DNA from: Bacteroidota bacterium
GTDB taxonomy: Bacteria; Bacteroidota; JABWAT01
DNA length: 64,000 bases
Reading direction: 5' to 3'
Assembly (NCBI GenBank): GCA_023151185.1
Contig: JAKLJL010000004.1
Location: 73,586 to 137,585 of the forward strand
Shown here: piece after piece, positions 2,570 to 43,900 of the stretch
How the letters are laid out: each line of letters begins with the position of its first letter
How positions within the stretch are numbered: position 1 is the stretch's first letter
The notes under the pieces: model-generated
Told to the model about the DNA's origin: nothing
What the model saw: the letters and a program-made list of their open reading frames with translations, nothing else
The model's database searches: none
Translations under genes and position numbers: made by a program

Positions 2570-3693
2570 TCAGTACCCCCTGAGGCTTTAAGCGGTATTT
2601 CAGGGCAGTCTGAACAGGTTTCCCTGCTTGAAGTATAAACCGTCAGACATCTCGGGCAAAAATAAGCACCGGTGCCGGAAATCTGGGGTTGGGGAAAATT
2701 TCCCAATTGGCGGATCCGGTCCAGAAGCTGATCATTCATCCAGCGGATGGCGGATTTAATTTCCACGGGCTGACCGGATGCCGATACCGGCCAGGACAGA
2801 TCCCGGATCATCTCCCCGATCACCCGGTCTCTTGACTCACCGGCAAGCAGAATCTGTGCCGCCGCTGCCGGATGAAGTCCCTCCAGCGCACGGGCCGAAA
2901 TCCGGTCACCCGACCGCAGGGTATAGAACGGAGAGATGAGTAAATGCAGGAACCGGCCGGCTTTTACCCACCGGGACGGAATCCCCTGACCGGGTTTTTC
3001 TTTTTTCCAAACTGTAACGACCTGAATCAGATGCAGAAGAAGTCCGCCGGAAAACCAAATAATAGCTGTTTCGGCAAACCCGAAAACCAGAATCAGAGCC
3101 GGAAGCACGACAAAAAGAAAAATCCAGACGATACTGGTAATCCGGTTAACGACAGCCACCGTTTGATCGGCAGCCGTAATCTGCTTTCTCCCCCGTTCTG
3201 TTTCGAACCTGAAACTGATTTCGTCCTGAATACGCCGTTCCCTGGCCGGAGAGGGCAGAGATTTCATGGTTCTGAAAAACAGGAGCCAGCGGCTGGCTTC
3301 GGCCTCGTTCAGACAGTCAACCGGGGGGAACCCGTTCAATGAAAGTTCCCGGCCGTTTTGCCTTACATCCTGCAGGTCTGGCCAGTGAATAAAATGTACC
3401 GGGTCCCGTTGCGGTCTGAGCCCGGCCGGAGTCAGAGGCGGGAGAAGGGCAATTCCCTGTGGTGAAAAGGCAAACGGCAGGTGGGCTGCCGGCATCAGGC
3501 GGCCAAAAGGCGGAACCGGAAATCCGGCCGCCAGCCCCTTTTTCTCATTTCCGAGAAACTCAAGCGGAGTCCCGGCAGTGACCTTTCCGCCCGGCCAGAC
3601 CCGGAACAGAACAGAATAGTGGGTTAACCAGACTGAGCACTCGGCCAGGTAAATCAGAATCAGGGCCGGAATGACCCAATCGAGTCCGGCCAT
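2566..3693 (-). CDS. Membrane protein with C-terminal zinc-ribbon-like motif, unknown function
   Basis: 375 residues. There is a hydrophobic N-terminal segment (about 5-25) and two adjacent membrane segments in the middle (about 185-225, VWIFLFVVLPALILVFGF and the following stretch), with soluble regions between. The last 30 residues contain two Cys pairs, CPRC and, after eleven residues, CSDC, which look like a zinc ribbon. It begins 3 bases after the stop of the DUF2167 gene and overlaps the next gene by 4 bases, so the group is almost certainly one operon. I do not recognise a family. Confidence 0.72.
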   Translation of the reverse strand: MAGLDWVIPALILIYLAECSVWLTHYSVLFRVWPGGKVTAGTPLEFLGNEKKGLAAGFPVPPFGRLMPAAHLPFAFSPQGIALLPPLTPAGLRPQRDPVHFIHWPDLQDVRQNGRELSLNGFPPVDCLNEAEASRWLLFFRTMKSLPSPARERRIQDEISFRFETERGRKQITAADQTVAVVNRITSIVWIFLFVVLPALILVFGFAETAIIWFSGGLLLHLIQVVTVWKKEKPGQGIPSRWVKAGRFLHLLISPFYTLRSGDRISARALEGLHPAAAAQILLAGESRDRVIGEMIRDLSWPVSASGQPVEIKSAIRWMNDQLLDRIRQLGNFPQPQISGTGAYFCPRCLTVYTSSRETCSDCPEIPLKASGGTE

Positions 3694-3696
3694 GAA

Positions 3697-4593
3697 TCAG
3701 GGGGTCTCATCCGGAGTCTGACCCGGTTCAGATTTTTTTTCCTCTTCCTTCTTCTTTTCCTTCCGGCCGGTCAGGAATTTCCAGACGGCGGAACCGGCGG
3801 CAACCAACCCGACTGCAATCAGTTTCCAGAACGCAACAAGCGCCTTTAAGATTGTATTGAAAAACCCGGATTTAACCGCCAGTGCCGCAGCACCACCCAG
3901 CACAAGAGCTGTAAGTCCGTACTCGGCAATTTTATCACCTTCCCGGAATTCAGCATATTTATTTCCTGAAGTGAAAGAAAAACTGTCGAGCGATTTTCTG
4001 AAAGGTTGAAGGTTTTGGTGATAGTTTTCAGGTCCGGTTACCAGGGTAACTTCCATCACACCCTGGCGGCCAAGCAGTTTGATGGTATGATTGATGAACA
4101 CCGAACTGCCTTCCGATATCCCCCGTATGGCATATTCCAGATTGTTGGTTACCGGGTTGTAATTCGGTGCCGTTGCCCAGCCCAAAATAGTCATTTTCGG
4201 AAAACCCTGCTCGGCCCGGGCTTCATTTGCACCCTCCATGTTTTCCTGCATGGCTTCCATCATTGCCGTTGAATCAAGGTCGTCCTTTTCATCATCTTTC
4301 ACGTACCCGATATCGGAGTACTCGAAAACCGTCCACCAGCCGTCAACCGTATCCAGCACCATCCCGACTTCCTGCCCGGAGGTCAGGTTCTGATTGTACA
4401 CCAGAAATTTACGGGCATCATCGCCATTGCCGAAAATCTGGTGCTCCGACAGGGTGATTTCGGCCAGTTCCCCCATCAGAGCCTTTCCTGGTCCATACTG
4501 CCAGCGGATCGGACTGGTTTCGGTTTGGGTTGTATCCTGTGCAAAAACAGTCAGGGTTGAGAAAAGAAGTGCAATTGTCAAAACCGGCTTCAT
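3697..4593 (-). CDS. DUF2167 family membrane-anchored protein
   Basis: 298 residues from the chosen ATG. The frame is open to a GTG at 4623, but the ATG at 4593 begins a normal signal peptide (MKPVLTIALLFSTLTVFAQ) and has CCAAAGGGCG just upstream, so I prefer it. DUF2167 signatures are clear: IRWQYGPGKALMGELAEI, GYVKDDEKDDLD, ANEARAEQGFPKMTILGW and an IKLLGRQGVMEVTLV segment. The C-terminal quarter has two hydrophobic segments (YGLTALVLGGAAALA and the VAFWKLIAVGLVAAG region) followed by a very basic/acidic tail rich in Lys and Glu. DUF2167 proteins are widespread envelope proteins without an established activity. It heads a four-gene minus-strand operon. Confidence 0.85.
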   Translation of the reverse strand: MKPVLTIALLFSTLTVFAQDTTQTETSPIRWQYGPGKALMGELAEITLSEHQIFGNGDDARKFLVYNQNLTSGQEVGMVLDTVDGWWTVFEYSDIGYVKDDEKDDLDSTAMMEAMQENMEGANEARAEQGFPKMTILGWATAPNYNPVTNNLEYAIRGISEGSSVFINHTIKLLGRQGVMEVTLVTGPENYHQNLQPFRKSLDSFSFTSGNKYAEFREGDKIAEYGLTALVLGGAAALAVKSGFFNTILKALVAFWKLIAVGLVAAGSAVWKFLTGRKEKKKEEEKKSEPGQTPDETP

Positions 4594-4777: not shown

Positions 4778-6361
4778 ATGGATGGAAGCTGGATGTCGCT
4801 GATTACCTTCGTCCTGGTTGTGCTCATGATTTCGGCACCTGTTGTTTTTGTTGGATTTATCTACTTCCGGAATAAATTTCAGTCCGGCCACTCCATTCTC
4901 AGAAAGCATCCCCTGCTGGGGACGCTCCGGTATCTGATTGAAAAACTGGGACCCGAATTCCGGTTTTACATCACCGATGCGGATAACGAAGGCACACCCT
5001 TCAGCCGGAATCACTTTACCGCCATTGTCTTTGCTGCGAAATACTGCAAAACCGTTATCGGATTCGGATCCAAACGGGATTTCAGTCAGCCCGGGTTTTA
5101 CCTGAACAACTCCCTTTTCCCCAAACAGAATTCAGAATTGAAGGTAGATAATTCCTTCAGTTTTAAAACCCACAAATATGAAGTGGTGAGTGAAGGGATC
5201 TTTACCAGGAAGCAAACTTCTTCCTGGGTTGACGTCCGTCCCTGGCAGTTGACTGAAGAAGAGGCTATTCTGTTCGGCCCGTCCCGCAGAACTCCCTATG
5301 CGGCAAAAACCTGGTTTGGCTGTTCTGCAATGAGTTACGGCTCCCTCGGCGCCAACGCCATCGAAGCCATTAACCGGGGCCTTGCCCTGACCGGGTCGGG
5401 CTGGCACAACACCGGTGAAGGCGGAATTTCGCCGTTTCATCTGAAGGGCGCCGATGTTATTTCGCAGATCGGTTCCGGGAAATTCGGATACAGGACCCGG
5501 GACGGAAAACTGGACTGGAATCTGGTGGCTGAAAAGGCCCGGATCCCCGAAGTGAAACTGTTCGAAATTAAGCTTCATCAGGGAGCAAAAATCAAGGGCG
5601 GGCATCTGGAAGGAGCCAAAGTGACTCCGGAAATAGCTGCGATCCGGAATGTCGAAGCCTGGAAAACCATCTCCTCACCCAACCGGTTCGATGACTTTAA
5701 TTCGGTAGATTCCCTGCTCGACTTTATAGAAAAATTTCAGGACGTTTCGGGAAAACCGGTGGGAATAAAAGTGGTGATCGGGAGTGATGTTTCGCTTGAC
5801 GACCTGTGTCAGAGAATGAAAGACCGGGGAACCGGACCCGATTTTATAACTGTGGACGGCGGGGAAGGCGGATCCGGGGCAACCTATAAGGAAATGGCGG
5901 ATACCATGGGGTTACCGGTCTTTTCGGGTCTGGTTATTGCTGATGATACCCTTCAGAAATACGGACTCCGTGACCGGGTTAAGCTGATTGCCTCGGGGAA
6001 ACTTCACAGCGCCGACCAGATCTGCATTGCTCTGGGTCTTGGAGCCGATGCGGTAAATATCGCCCGTGGATTTATGATCGCAGCCGGATGTATCATGACT
6101 GAAAAATGCCATACGGGGCAGTGCCCTGTAGGTGTTGCAACCAATGACCCTGATTATATGAAGGCGTTGGTGGTTGAGGAGAAAATGTACCGGGTGGCCA
6201 ATTATGTTACCACCCTCCGGGCTGCCTGTTTCTCTCTGGCAGCCGCCTGTGGTGTCGAATCTCCCGTACAGCTTAACCGCCGCCATGTAGTTTACAAGTA
6301 CGGTGATTACCGTACCATTCGGGCAGACCGGCTGTTTTCAGGCACTGCACCTCTGAATTAA
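4778..6361 (+). CDS. Glutamate synthase-related FMN/Fe-S protein, single-domain
   Basis: 527 residues from the ATG at 4778, chosen because GGGAGG at 4765-4770 is 7 bases upstream; an in-frame ATG at 4772 is too close to it. The protein has an N-terminal membrane segment (about 5-28), then the FMN-binding TIM barrel of the glutamate synthase large subunit: SAMSYGSLG, NTGEGG, KLHQGAKIKGGHL, VDGGEGGSGA and GADAVNIARGFMIAAGC. The 3Fe-4S ligands are in CIMTEKCHTGQCPVG (three Cys near residue 440-450). There is no glutaminase domain and no GltD partner next door, so it is of the stand-alone membrane-anchored class (YerD-like), whose substrate is not settled. It is monocistronic here. Confidence 0.88.
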   Translation: MDGSWMSLITFVLVVLMISAPVVFVGFIYFRNKFQSGHSILRKHPLLGTLRYLIEKLGPEFRFYITDADNEGTPFSRNHFTAIVFAAKYCKTVIGFGSKRDFSQPGFYLNNSLFPKQNSELKVDNSFSFKTHKYEVVSEGIFTRKQTSSWVDVRPWQLTEEEAILFGPSRRTPYAAKTWFGCSAMSYGSLGANAIEAINRGLALTGSGWHNTGEGGISPFHLKGADVISQIGSGKFGYRTRDGKLDWNLVAEKARIPEVKLFEIKLHQGAKIKGGHLEGAKVTPEIAAIRNVEAWKTISSPNRFDDFNSVDSLLDFIEKFQDVSGKPVGIKVVIGSDVSLDDLCQRMKDRGTGPDFITVDGGEGGSGATYKEMADTMGLPVFSGLVIADDTLQKYGLRDRVKLIASGKLHSADQICIALGLGADAVNIARGFMIAAGCIMTEKCHTGQCPVGVATNDPDYMKALVVEEKMYRVANYVTTLRAACFSLAAACGVESPVQLNRRHVVYKYGDYRTIRADRLFSGTAPLN

Positions 6362-6474
6362 CGGGCTGACCTCCTGCTCCTGGTCCAGATCTAACATTAA
6401 CCTAATTTGATTTCTGATAAAAAAACCGGAATTTTGGTCTTCATCCGTTTAATTCATCAGGAAATCTGTCTAAC

Positions 6475-7218
6475 ATGAGCCGGAAAAGTCTGTTAGTCTT
6501 CTCCTTTTTGTTTTTTTCTGCCCCTCTCCTGGCAGCCGAAGTCCTCGATTTTGCATTGGTTTTCAAGTCTCTTATCCAGGACAAATCCCTGATATCCGGC
6601 TATAGACGGACTGTCTTCAATCAAAACATTGACCTGATCGGGAGGGTTGACCCCTTTCTGATCCCGGTTTACCTCGAAATTCTCAATCTGCCGGATTCGG
6701 ACCAGAAAGCCCGTAAGCTGACCCGCTTGAATGACCGGATCAGTTTTATGAGTTCCCGGTTCAACCAGCATCTTGATGACTTGAGTCTGCTTGCCGGAAA
6801 AGATTCTTCTCTGGATGATAATACCTTCAAAAAAGTCCTGGACCTTCTTGGTAAAATGCGGATTCGAATCAACAACCCCTCAGGCCCGGATTCCACAGCT
6901 TTCCCATTGGATTCGGATGATTTTTTCCCTGTTTATCTTTATTTAACCGGCAGACCCGGTCTTTCCCGGTTACCCGATACAGATTACCGCAGTTTGGTCG
7001 GGTCCCTGTCTTTACAGGCAGCGAAAAATCTGGTTGATCTGCTCAGGATTGCAACTGAACTGAAATCCATCCGGGCTGAGGACATTGCCTATACTTATCA
7101 AATAAACTGGGCCTGGACCGAGCATCACAAACTTAAAGTAATTCTTCCTGCCGCAGCCTTTTACCGGGCCCTGGCAGCCAGCCTGAACCCAGCACCTCGG
7201 GCGCAACCCAATGAGTGA
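6475..7218 (+). CDS. Secreted protein, paralogue 1 of a three-gene family (short form)
   Basis: 247 residues with a signal peptide (SLLVFSFLFFSAPLLAAE). It matches the N-terminal half of its two downstream neighbours: a shared core of the form R-x-VFNQ-x-I-x-x-x-G-x-V-x-P-x-LIP-x-Y (here RRTVFNQNIDLIG then VDPFLIPVYLEIL), followed by a charged helical stretch. It lacks the C-terminal beta-rich part of the other two and ends soon after TYQINWAWTEHHKL. It could be a soluble periplasmic relative of the longer forms or a truncated copy, although its frame is intact. No family recognised. Confidence 0.75.
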   Translation: MSRKSLLVFSFLFFSAPLLAAEVLDFALVFKSLIQDKSLISGYRRTVFNQNIDLIGRVDPFLIPVYLEILNLPDSDQKARKLTRLNDRISFMSSRFNQHLDDLSLLAGKDSSLDDNTFKKVLDLLGKMRIRINNPSGPDSTAFPLDSDDFFPVYLYLTGRPGLSRLPDTDYRSLVGSLSLQAAKNLVDLLRIATELKSIRAEDIAYTYQINWAWTEHHKLKVILPAAAFYRALAASLNPAPRAQPNE

Positions 7219-38727: not shown

Positions 38728-38872
38728 GACTTCATCCGGTTTTTCCTGAAAATACGGATTTCGGAGGAGAAGGCGAAATGAATGGGGGAAACCGGCATCC
38801 CGGCACAACAGACCGGGAAAAAGAAAGGGGGGTTTTCAATTGGGACGGGGTTTTATCTGGATAAAACTGACC

Positions 38873-38986
38873 GGCCTGGCAACCCACTTACCAGACCGGT
38901 CTTCCTTTCGCCTCGACTCGGGATCTTGGAGAAATAAACACACTCATTCCGGCACCAGCTTATTGGGGAGTTAAGCTGCCGGAACC
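38873..38986 (-). repeat. Structured repeat, copy A
   Basis: 114 bases, about three-quarters identical to copy B at 40005-40115. Two blocks are strongly conserved: GGCCTGRCAACCCACYTACC near one end (25 of 27 bases) and TTGGGGAGTTAAGC near the other (14 of 14). At 38947-38984 the bases form a stem of 8 plus 5 pairs (TTCCGGCA/TGCCGGAA and GCTTA/TAAGC) with the loop TTGGGGAGT. At 38870-38899 CCGGCCTGG pairs with CCAGACCGG. Strand of function is unknown. Confidence 0.75.
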
Positions 38987-39024
38987 ACCGGCCAAACGAT
39001 TACATATTTATTTTTGCCGTGACA

Positions 39025-39053
39025 ATAGTAGCAAAAAGCGCTTCCAATGTCAA
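39025..39053 (-). promoter_or_regulatory. Sigma70-like promoter reading into repeat copy A
   Basis: On the minus strand TTGACA, 17 bases, TACTAT. It is close to the E. coli consensus and unlike the Bacteroidota promoters elsewhere in the window. Transcription would start near 39018 and enter the repeat within about 30 bases. Confidence 0.5.
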
Positions 39054-39243
39054 GACAACAAACCAATATATTTGTTATTGTTTATGAATTTTTGAGGAGT
39101 TAATTTCAATCTGACACGGAACTGCATTCCCGCCTTTCCCTACCGGGCTGGAGTCCCCTGTACTTAATCCAGCACTAAAATTGTGGAGACAATTACCCTT
39201 TCGCCCTGGGGCCAATCAATTTTGAGTTTGATTTAGGTATGAG

Positions 39244-39873: not shown

Positions 39874-40290
39874 AATTATGTTCCTGGGATTATTAAAAAA
39901 AGAACCTGAAGTCTGTGAAAATTAGAAACCTGAACTTGCTGCACCCTGAATCCGGGTCTTCTGAAAGTACCCTGGCTGATAGCCATCCGGGCACGTAATC
40001 AACAGGCCTGACAACCCACCTACCAGACCGGCGCACCTTTCTCCATGACCCGGAATTCTGGAGAAAAAATTACACTCATTACGGTACATGCTTTTTGGGG
40101 AGTTAAGCCGGAACCCCCATTAAAACATTTTTCTGAATTCAAAGCAAAATGACCTTTCGAATATCAATTAAGTACTTCTCCATGGGGGCCTGTCCTTTAG
40201 GTTAGCCAGGCTAGGACTTTAATACACTTTTATGAACACTCTCCTTGCTATCTTCAATTTATATAACTTTTTAGTTTAAATAACTTATTA
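39874..40290. other. Intergenic region with repeat copy B
   Basis: 417 bases without a credible gene, separating the two small island genes. It contains structured repeat copy B; the part from 40190 to 40290 is AT-rich and featureless apart from a short AGCC/GGCT-type dyad near 40204-40212. Confidence 0.6.
40005..40115 (-). repeat. Structured repeat, copy B
   Basis: 111 bases homologous to copy A. On the minus strand a perfect eight-pair hairpin TTTCTCCA/TGGAGAAA lies in the middle (40044-40074), and GGTCTG/CAGGCC pairs around the conserved TAGGTGGGTTG loop. The TTGGGGAGTTAAGC block is at 40095-40108, where the enclosing stem is weaker than in copy A. It follows the candidate immunity gene at about 175 bases. 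Confidence 0.75.
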
Positions 40291-40980
40291 TCATTCCTTA
40301 GCCACTACGTCCTGTATCCTTACAACAAAACAGTCTTTTGTTTTATATACCCTTATAAAATATTTCCCAACAAAGTCATAAAAACAATAATAACTGTCAT
40401 CATCCTTTAGATTAAAACGGTGAAAATCAGTTTGAGTTTCATAGAGAATTAATTCCTCACTCAAATCCCAATAGTCAAATCGGGACAGACGGTCATTTTG
40501 TAAAGACGATTTGGAAAGCTGGAAAACGTTTTCTCCGTGTCGTGCTGTCAGGTTCCCAGAATTAGAAACAGAAAATACTTTGAGCCCTTTGGCAACTTCT
40601 ATACTATCCAGTAATTGCAACTCCAGATTAAAGAGATAACAATACTTCCAAAATTCTGAGAGGCAATATAATGTATCATTTGAGATTAGTATGTCACCCA
40701 CATCCTGGTAGTTATTTACCACTTGACTTTTTGTTATTAAGTCCCCATCGTAATTAAATTTTAAAATTCGATTTTCAATTGTATTCGAAACATATAACTC
40801 TTCCTTATAAAAACAGGCTCCATTAATCCCATATGGCTTACTGCCTTCTTCTGTAGGGTCCCCTATTTTAATTTTTCCCATATCACTGTTTTCAATCACA
40901 ATTGTTCTGTTAAATTCCTGTGCAAATACGCAATAAGGTAAAATCAGGAAAATTATAAAATAACCTAGTCTTTGTCCCAT
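40291..40980 (-). CDS. Exported beta-propeller-like protein, candidate immunity protein
   Basis: 229 residues with a Sec signal peptide (LGYFIIFLILPYCVFAQ). The mature part reads like a six-bladed/NHL-type propeller (PYGINGACFYKEELYVSN, ILKFNYDGDLI, DVGDILISNDTLYCLSE). The start overlaps the last 16 bases of the RHS gene, and GGGGG sits 7 bases before the ATG inside the RHS reading frame. A gene immediately after a polymorphic toxin is usually its immunity gene; the signal peptide places the product in the periplasm, where an NlpC/P60 toxin acting on peptidoglycan would need to be blocked. Arginine codons are mostly AGA and CCGG sites are rare, unlike the core genes. Confidence 0.68.
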   Translation of the reverse strand: MGQRLGYFIIFLILPYCVFAQEFNRTIVIENSDMGKIKIGDPTEEGSKPYGINGACFYKEELYVSNTIENRILKFNYDGDLITKSQVVNNYQDVGDILISNDTLYCLSEFWKYCYLFNLELQLLDSIEVAKGLKVFSVSNSGNLTARHGENVFQLSKSSLQNDRLSRFDYWDLSEELILYETQTDFHRFNLKDDDSYYCFYDFVGKYFIRVYKTKDCFVVRIQDVVAKE

Positions 40981-43900
40981 TTATAGACCCCCTTCAATGT
41001 AAGCCATGTTTTTGGGCTGGAAACGTTATATGTTGTTGCTTGCGGGCCACTTGTTTTATCAGTTGGTTTACCAAACGAATGTAATACAGTGAAACCGATT
41101 ACATTTCCATTTTCATCCTTTTTAATATCTGTTGCAACCCCAATGTGATCAAATTCACCATCCGCTCCTTCATGGTTTGACCTGTTTGTTTTAAAAACAA
41201 CATAGTTGCCAGCCTCAATTTTATTTACATCAACCTTTTCAGTTCCATCAACCAATAACGCAACTCCATTTGTAACAATTTTCTTTCCATCTGAAGACAA
41301 AACACCCTCTTTCCCTGCCATTTGGTTCCCATTTCCCGCCTCGGCCTGAGCAGAATTTACAAGCCCAGAGCAATCAGTTTTTGCTCCATCTTTAACTTCG
41401 CTTGAGCTGACTATTTTTGTATTTGTACCGTATGTTCCACCAGGATTATTTTCAACAAATGAATTCATTGCTGCAACTAAATTCGCTCGCTGAACTGAAT
41501 CCATTCCGGTTGGGTCAACTGCTATAATAGGATTATCTCCCATTCCCACAAAAGGATTACTTGACTTGTATCTGTCCGCATGAGGATCTACCTGTAAAAA
41601 CCGGCCCAATTGGGAATCATACAACCGGGCTTCGAAGTAGTCATAACCGGTTTCCTGATCCCGCTCCTTGCCCTGGTATTTAAACTTATCCTGGGCCGGA
41701 AGCTGGGTGGTGGTGCTTTTCAAGGTGGCGCCAAACGGGTAGTAATCCTCAGTACTGACGACCGTTGCCACAGTTCCGTCATCCCGGAAGGTTTGCCTGA
41801 TGTTGCCCAGATGATCCTTCACCCAATAATACCGCTTCCAGGTTCCATTTTCAAGGCGGGACTGGCCGACTGTTTCAGATCCGGCAGTCATGAGGGAAAC
41901 ATACTCTATGGCTGCAGAACTGTTCTTATACTCAGCCAGAATGGCTCCGGCGGCATCCCTGACGTACACCCAGGTATCCGGGCCGACCTTTTTCCAAATC
42001 CGCTGGCCTGAAAAATTATATCCGTAATACACCACTGATCCATTGGTTTTGGTTACTTTTTCGGGCAGATTCTGGCTGTTGTACGTCAGTTGTGATATCC
42101 CCCGGTTAAGATCCTGTACCAGATTTCCGTTATTGTCGTATTTGAAACTGATCCCGGCCTCTGACAATGAAATGTTATCAAAGTAAACCGTCGTTCCGGT
42201 CGCCGCATTGTCCATGACAATCGCCCGGGCATACACAGCATCTGCCGGGGCTGTCAGGTTTCCTGTAAAACTGGTCCAGGCGGTTGCTCTTCCGGTACTC
42301 AGTACGTACTGAACTGAAATCCGGGTAAAGTCCTGTCTCAGCCATTCAATTCCGGCATAGGCATTGGGCTGAACGGGAATCTCATCACTGTTAACCGCCA
42401 CCCCTTTATACTTTCCGGCAAGGGTATAAATTCTTCCCGGGATAATCGTCTGGGCCTTCGTCCGCATACTGGCACTTGTGGTGGTGGAGCTTGCAGAGGT
42501 CTGCGGTGTCAGTTTCAGGATCAGATTCCCCGACTCGCTGACAATGCTGACGCCTGAAGCAGGGTCGGTACTGTAAAATCCGGTTTGGTCCCAGATGGCA
42601 GACTGGGGACGGGCACCAGCCGCAACCGGGTACTGGGAAAAATCTTCTGTAAAACCGGCAAAAGACTGATTGATCAACGCCGACGGACCCGAAACAGAAT
42701 TGACAGTAGTTTCATAATCATCGGTCCGGGCAGTTTTAACCTTATCAATAACATTCAGAAGACGGGTTCCGGCATACTGATACACCAGATTATCCAGCTC
42801 AGTGATGACTTTTGTGGTTTGATCCCAGGTTTTCTTTATCTGGCTGGTCATATTTCCCATCCCGTCATACACATAGGCCGAATTGTACCGGTCATTCCTG
42901 GTGTTCTGGACACCAAAGGTCTTAACCCCCGTCAGCCGGTTCCAGTTATCATAATCGAAACCAAAACCCAGAGTGTCACGACAGGTTACCGGATTAGTAT
43001 CCAGGACATCCCGGTTCACCGTCCGGATAAAGGAAATGTTTCCATTGTAATTCGGCTGAACTCCGGCCGGAAGACCTGTTCCGAAATAGTATAGTTCCTC
43101 ACTGAAGCCGGTCGACTGCGAATTGATTTCCCTGAGCCACCCTCTTACATCCTGAATAGAAATCTGATTAAAAGTACCAGTGGCATTCGTTTGGATAACT
43201 GAATTTTCGTTTGTGCCATAGGTGTAAGTCCAAACGACCGAATCAGTTCTTCCTGCATGAATCTGGCTGATTTTTACCGGCCGGGACAAACCATCATACC
43301 AGAATCTGCGTTTGGACAGCAGCTTTCCGCTGAGAGAAGCTTCCCAGGATTTTAATTTTCCCTGATAATCGTACTCTTTGAATTTCTCCGTTTTGGTAAC
43401 TGTATCTGAAATTTCGGTCACTGATTTGACCCAGCCTTCGGGAGTATAGGAATAGTAAGTCCTGATGGCTCTGAATTTCCCGTCCGGATTCGGGGAGTAC
43501 TCAATTTTATAACCGGGTTTTCCCAATCCGTTTTCAAGTGAATATCCATGAACGGTACGGGAGATATCATAGTATATTTTTGTCTGCACCACATGGCTTT
43601 GCCCCAGGCTGACAATCGAAGCAGCCGGCTTATCCAGTTCTGCTTTTGACATAACTGAGGTCGGGTGGATGTTCTGACCGGTGATTTGCGGCCAGTTTCC
43701 GTTGTCGGCATTGGCAGCAGTCCAGTTACCGGCAGAAACAATTTGGCCCTGCTCGACCGGACGAGACAGATAATCATATTTGAAATAGGTCATTTTACCT
43801 GCAACAGACTGGTTCGGGTCAACTGAAAACCGGAGACGTCCATATTTGTCGTACATAAATTCAAAGTCCGGATTGGCATCAGCATCTGATTCTGCAAGCC

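Follow-up and report, generated by a model that had tools for sequence, protein, structure and literature searches.

P0001, an exported protein of 229 residues, is likely the cognate immunity protein (RhsI) of the NlpC/P60-type toxin tip that is encoded by the 3' end of the overlapping Rhs gene. The initial annotation of the window, i.e. the whole 64,000-nucleotide stretch of Bacteroidota DNA that was analysed, had proposed this role from the letters alone, and the comparison of related genomes supports it well: sequence comparison suggests that the gene was conserved with its tip in one relative (G003) and replaced together with the tip in another (G002).

The gene pair, its junction and the identity of the tip

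The initial annotation had described an open reading frame that overlaps the Rhs 3' end; its coordinates, its strand and the length of the overlap were exact (Table 1). The Lys-Trp codons close to the C-terminus of the Rhs protein (TATAAATGGGAC) contain the start ATG of P0001, which stands in the context GGTCTATAAATGGGAC. The corresponding junction of G003, GGTTTATAAATGGGAC, is near-identical with an overlap of 13 bases. P0001 starts with MGQRLGYFIIFLILPYCVFA/Q, a Sec/SPI-type signal as had been claimed, and its G003 homologue P0005 has an SPI-type N-terminus as well; both signals were assigned by eye and hydropathy only. The Rhs protein matched TIGR03696 with 62.1 bits and RHS_repeat with 41.6 bits, and its Rhs-associated core is common to all swapped tips in the genus. 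The G+C content was 0.336 in P0001, 0.40 in the tip and 0.46 in the Rhs body at a window average of 0.498.

Table 1. Features of the Rhs locus in window coordinates.
Feature	Positions	Strand	Remarks
P0003, lipoprotein, 209 aa	39244..39873	(-)	Next gene downstream of P0001; probable orphan immunity gene
P0001, candidate cognate immunity gene, 229 aa	40291..40980	(-)	ORF; SPI-type signal peptide and predicted small NHL-propeller-like domain
Overlap of Rhs stop and P0001 start	40965..40980	(-)	16 bases; conserved junction GGTYTATAAATGGGAC
Rhs gene (P0002), 2421 aa	40965..48230	(-)	Sec signal peptide, YD repeat, Rhs-associated core, tip
Rhs C-terminal toxin tip (P0004)	40968..41510	(-)	Predicted NlpC/P60-type cysteine peptidase (Cys48, His123, His145); starts right after DPTG
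Rhs-associated core	41502..41744	(-)	P0002 residues 2163-2243, directly before the tip; TIGR03696 match

The tip comprises the last 182 residues of the Rhs protein. Its score against Pfam NLPC_P60 was 13.2 bits, which is under the cut-off of 23. Relatives of the tip were found in G003 (49% identity), in G252 and in two further MAGs (loci L067 and L068), while a search of 395 genomes from the class to which G252 belongs returned only G252 itself. The L067 tip exceeded the NLPC_P60 cut-off with 26.0 bits, and the G252 tip exceeded that of Amidase_6 with 25.4 bits. Cys48, located in a D-C-[SA]-G motif, and His123 were invariant in all five aligned tips; the third polar position was His, Asp or Gln. 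Because of the conserved catalytic residues and the L067 relative above the Pfam cut-off we assign the Rhs tip to the NlpC/P60 peptidases. The earlier classification was thus borne out via the relatives, though P0004 itself is sub-threshold. The expected substrate of the NlpC/P60 family is peptidoglycan.

Papain-like domains can also be processing peptidases in polymorphic toxins (PMC3482391), so that the NlpC/P60 domain might be a processing or self-remodelling enzyme instead of a toxin, with P0001 as its regulator in the producer. We consider this extremely improbable, since the domain forms the extreme C-terminus past the Rhs core, which is the toxin position, and is exchanged for unrelated domains in relatives. 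A toxin tip is the preferred reading.

The genes next to the other tips were also compared. All five tips of this NlpC/P60 family are accompanied by an exported protein whose gene overlaps or lies within about 30 bases. The partners of the three more distant tips (G252, L067 and L068; about 30% identical) carry a signal peptide or a lipobox and are not propeller-like; by reading, those of G252 and L068 are one lipoprotein type, and that of L067 is another. A second Rhs gene of the window genome G000 (L044, contig C22:45000-60000, positions 2913-4317) has a CHAP/NlpC-like tip, and the gene behind it encodes yet another exported protein, of 160 aa. A small exported gene likewise occupies the partner position of most other Rhs tips examined. 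With exported partners behind these tips, periplasmic or envelope immunity therefore fits this toxin class. The propeller-like partner itself, as far as the sequences tell, is specific to the tip type of G000 and G003. That a single toxin family can have several immunity families has been noted before (PMC7073777).

Joint conservation and replacement at one chromosomal site

Four genomes were available for comparison in the class of the window genome, and in three of them an Rhs gene occupies one shared site, with the order TerC, Rhs, cassette, aroQ and flippase. Identity between G000 and G003 is 49% for the tips, 23-26% for the partners and about 30% for the Rhs bodies. The Rhs gene of G002 is homologous up to DPTG, then an unrelated tip follows and, three bases on, an unrelated lipoprotein of 209 aa. 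No homologue of P0001 was found in G002. Because tip and partner at the G002 site are both unrelated and G002 lacks a P0001 homologue, the tip and its P0001-type partner appear to have been kept together in G000 and G003 and replaced jointly in G002.

Two properties of Rhs-CT/RhsI systems are thus seen at this site. The tip diverges abruptly at a DPxG motif after the Rhs core, as the homology of the syntenic Rhs proteins ends at DPTG, and the small downstream gene is exchanged with the tip (G000 and G003 versus G002). The initial annotation had suggested co-occurrence across genomes as a check of the pairing, and the two sequences proved to be shared by G000 and G003, with both replaced at the same site of G002. 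It had also named a propeller gene next to unrelated RHS tips as counter-evidence; no P0001 homologue was found beside an unrelated Rhs tip. The tip-propeller pair was seen in these two genomes only. Since both are relatives of the same genus with the pair at the same site, the co-occurrence may count as one event.

Non-coding stretches downstream of the cassette (window 38809-39243 and L005 4646-5826) are about 75-90% alike in the three genomes. These stretches, possibly short interspersed repeats, delimit the exchanged region on its 3' side. The unrelated G002 tip (L042 10911-11579) had no significant Pfam match; it contains the Cys/His motifs THCNQATQC and PGHVATL and, judged by these, might be another papain-like or amidase toxin.

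Fold of P0001, known counterparts and proposed mechanism

The initial annotation had called P0001 propeller-like. No family was matched by P0001 in Pfam, NCBIfam and PHROG, and neither P0001 nor P0005 showed an NHL, propeller or other family in Pfam up to E=10. Searches of the PDB gave nothing meaningful for P0001 (a chance SusD match had an E of 0.12) and nothing for A1, a two-sequence profile of P0001 and its G003 homologue. There was no match of P0001 to plasmids, and a pattern scan of the genome contigs yielded nothing. Run against 394 genomes of the phylum, the two-sequence profile gave 13 matches apart from its two input genes, all of them weak. About eight of the 13 fell in propeller-like proteins, the others being noise-like. 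Four of the propeller-like matches (L053, L054, L055 and L058) were recognized by Pfam (DUF5128, NHL or a weaker propeller match), and four (L060, L061, L064 and L065) by reading. By hhalign the pooled propellers aligned over about two blades with the first half of mature P0001 at 95% probability, an optimistic value because these propellers had been chosen by their match; five unrelated controls and six shuffled sequences remained at or below 0.3%.

A first structure model from the two-row alignment had a mean pLDDT of 34 and was discarded. The second model, which was built with a propeller-seeded alignment, reached a mean pLDDT of 58.8 and about 80 at residues 52-135, where the blades lie. 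The Foldseek matches listed for this model were propellers with NHL domains first, a weak and partly circular result because the alignment had been seeded with distant propellers. A test for internal repeats gave p=0.35 for P0001, which is not significant, and a weak signal for the G003 homologue (p=0.04). Taken together, profile and model suggest that the N-terminal half of P0001 is probably NHL-propeller-like, and we assign the fold to about the first half of the protein only. Thus the claim of a propeller held at the profile level for this half, while family matches and significant internal repeats of P0001 did not back it.

The distant profile matches include generic Bacteroidota propellers (DUF5128, NHL), as would be expected if P0001 were a secreted or surface propeller for adhesion, a chaperone or a co-effector that travels with this Rhs protein and has no part in immunity. 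This is unlikely in our view: P0001 is swapped along with the tip at the same locus while the Rhs body stays, its gene overlaps the tip gene, and a small exported gene stands at this place in other NlpC/P60 tips and in most Rhs tips examined. An immunity function of P0001 remains our preferred reading.

The combination of a propeller with an NlpC/P60 toxin, which the initial annotation did not know as a pairing, has already been described in kind. Tsi1 of Pseudomonas aeruginosa, a periplasmic fragmented beta-propeller, inhibits the NlpC/P60 amidase Tse1 by placing Ser109 at the catalytic His91 (PMC3391265), and a bladed propeller has been modelled for PefE, an immunity protein of Proteus mirabilis (PMC5714391). 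Tse1/Tsi1 resembles the pair of the window in joining an NlpC/P60 enzyme with a periplasmic partner of propeller type, a fold that is probable for part of P0001. It differs in its delivery by a T6SS, without an Rhs tip, and in the three sheets of Tsi1 that resemble the DPP IV propeller (PMC3391265), whereas P0001 appears NHL-like. The topology of Tsi1 recurs in X-Tfi XAC2610 and PliI-Ah, which inhibit peptidoglycan hydrolases with a loop that enters the active site, as predicted for X-Tfi and solved for PliI-Ah (PMC10933484). They are periplasmic and propeller-like, as P0001 appears to be, but as inhibitors of peptidoglycan hydrolases they have glycohydrolase targets (PMC10933484), and no sequence relation to P0001 was found. 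P0001 shares the periplasmic location of the Tsi1/X-Tfi/PliI group, to judge by its SPI-type signal (by eye and hydropathy only), while PDB searches with P0001 and with A1 detected no sequence relation to Tsi1 or to other solved members. PefE differs in belonging to a T6SS hcp-vgrG effector operon with another kind of effector and no NlpC/P60 Rhs tip (PMC5714391). By sequence, P0001 may thus be a case independent of Tsi1, X-Tfi, PliI-Ah and PefE.

A survey of polymorphic toxins in 2012 reported Tox-NLPC/P60 as a C-terminal Rhs toxin in Bacteroidetes, gave no immunity family for it and, as of that year, did not find beta-propellers among the immunity proteins (PMC3482391). TLP immunity genes are a further precedent for the immunity reading (PMC13018210). 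With P0001, NlpC/P60 Rhs toxins would gain an immunity family that has no name yet, and it suggests a repeated use of propeller-like folds against peptidoglycan-cutting toxins. More tentatively, and with somewhat less than even confidence, we propose that a small NHL-type propeller unrelated in sequence to Tsi1 was independently recruited in this sparsely sampled Bacteroidota lineage to serve NlpC/P60 Rhs tips as their dedicated immunity protein in the periplasm. In that case it would be, within the literature consulted, the first described example of a propeller that confers immunity to an Rhs polymorphic toxin, and the inhibition of NlpC/P60 enzymes would have arisen convergently.

For toxicity, delivery, translational coupling, binding and the mode of inhibition we infer the following course. 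The Rhs protein would be exported via Sec by its own signal peptide and presumably move on to the cell surface, and in the periplasm of a neighbour the tip peptidase would cleave the peptides of peptidoglycan. Translation of P0001 would be coupled to that of the Rhs protein on a shared message; once exported to the periplasm, P0001 would bind the tip, which would shield the producer and its kin. The simplest mode of binding would be a cap over the catalytic Cys and His, like that of the propeller-like Tsi1 on Tse1. Tip and immunity gene would form one exchangeable cassette, of which an older version may have left the lipoprotein gene P0003.

P0003 and displaced cassettes

P0003 is an exported lipoprotein encoded in the same direction, and lipoproteins also come after the distant tips L009 and L068. 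It might therefore be P0003 that confers immunity to the NlpC/P60 tip, with P0001 as an accessory or a passenger. Yet P0003 has a homologue (47% identity over 180 aa) in the lipoprotein that adjoins the unrelated tip at the matching site of G002; no homologue was found in G003, which carries the NlpC/P60 tip; P0003 has no similarity to the L009 lipoprotein; and its gene lies 417 bases beyond P0001. This role for P0003 is thus very unlikely, and we rejected P0003 as the cognate partner of the present tip, its homologue belonging to a different tip in G002. Because the homologue partners an unrelated tip in G002 and G003 has none, P0003 is probably an orphan immunity gene that was left by an earlier, displaced tip, whereas P0001 is retained as the candidate partner of the present one. 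A remnant of a displaced G002-type tip was sought at 39874-40290, where nothing convincing was detected. Two further homologues of P0003 were found, one within an Rhs cassette array of G001 and the other, a distant one, in G125 amid small exported genes.

The window genome holds a second example on contig C11 (L047, C11:140000-150000). There, a displaced tip remnant and its immunity gene (6098-6826) come after an active tip and its partner. The remnant is 79% identical over its last half to the intact tip at the syntenic site of G002 (C117, L043), and the immunity gene is about 70% identical. Poole and colleagues described orphan rhs-CT/rhsI modules, and the pattern at C11 and P0003 agrees with them (PMC3150448). 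The window locus also resembles Rhs-CT/RhsI in its variable tip after DPxG, the small immunity gene next to it and the orphan modules behind; it differs in that the described examples were assayed within E. coli cells that expressed them, whereas toxin and partner of the window both appear to be directed to the periplasm (PMC3150448).

With the pair kept, swapped or followed by an old immunity gene at one site in three related genomes, the locus is a natural experiment, and cognate pairs for testing are therefore easy to pick. In G001 an array on contig C21 (L076, C21:26000-40788) contains Rhs core/tip cassettes, small exported genes and transposase-like fragments; it probably serves as a reservoir of cassettes for tips and immunity proteins.
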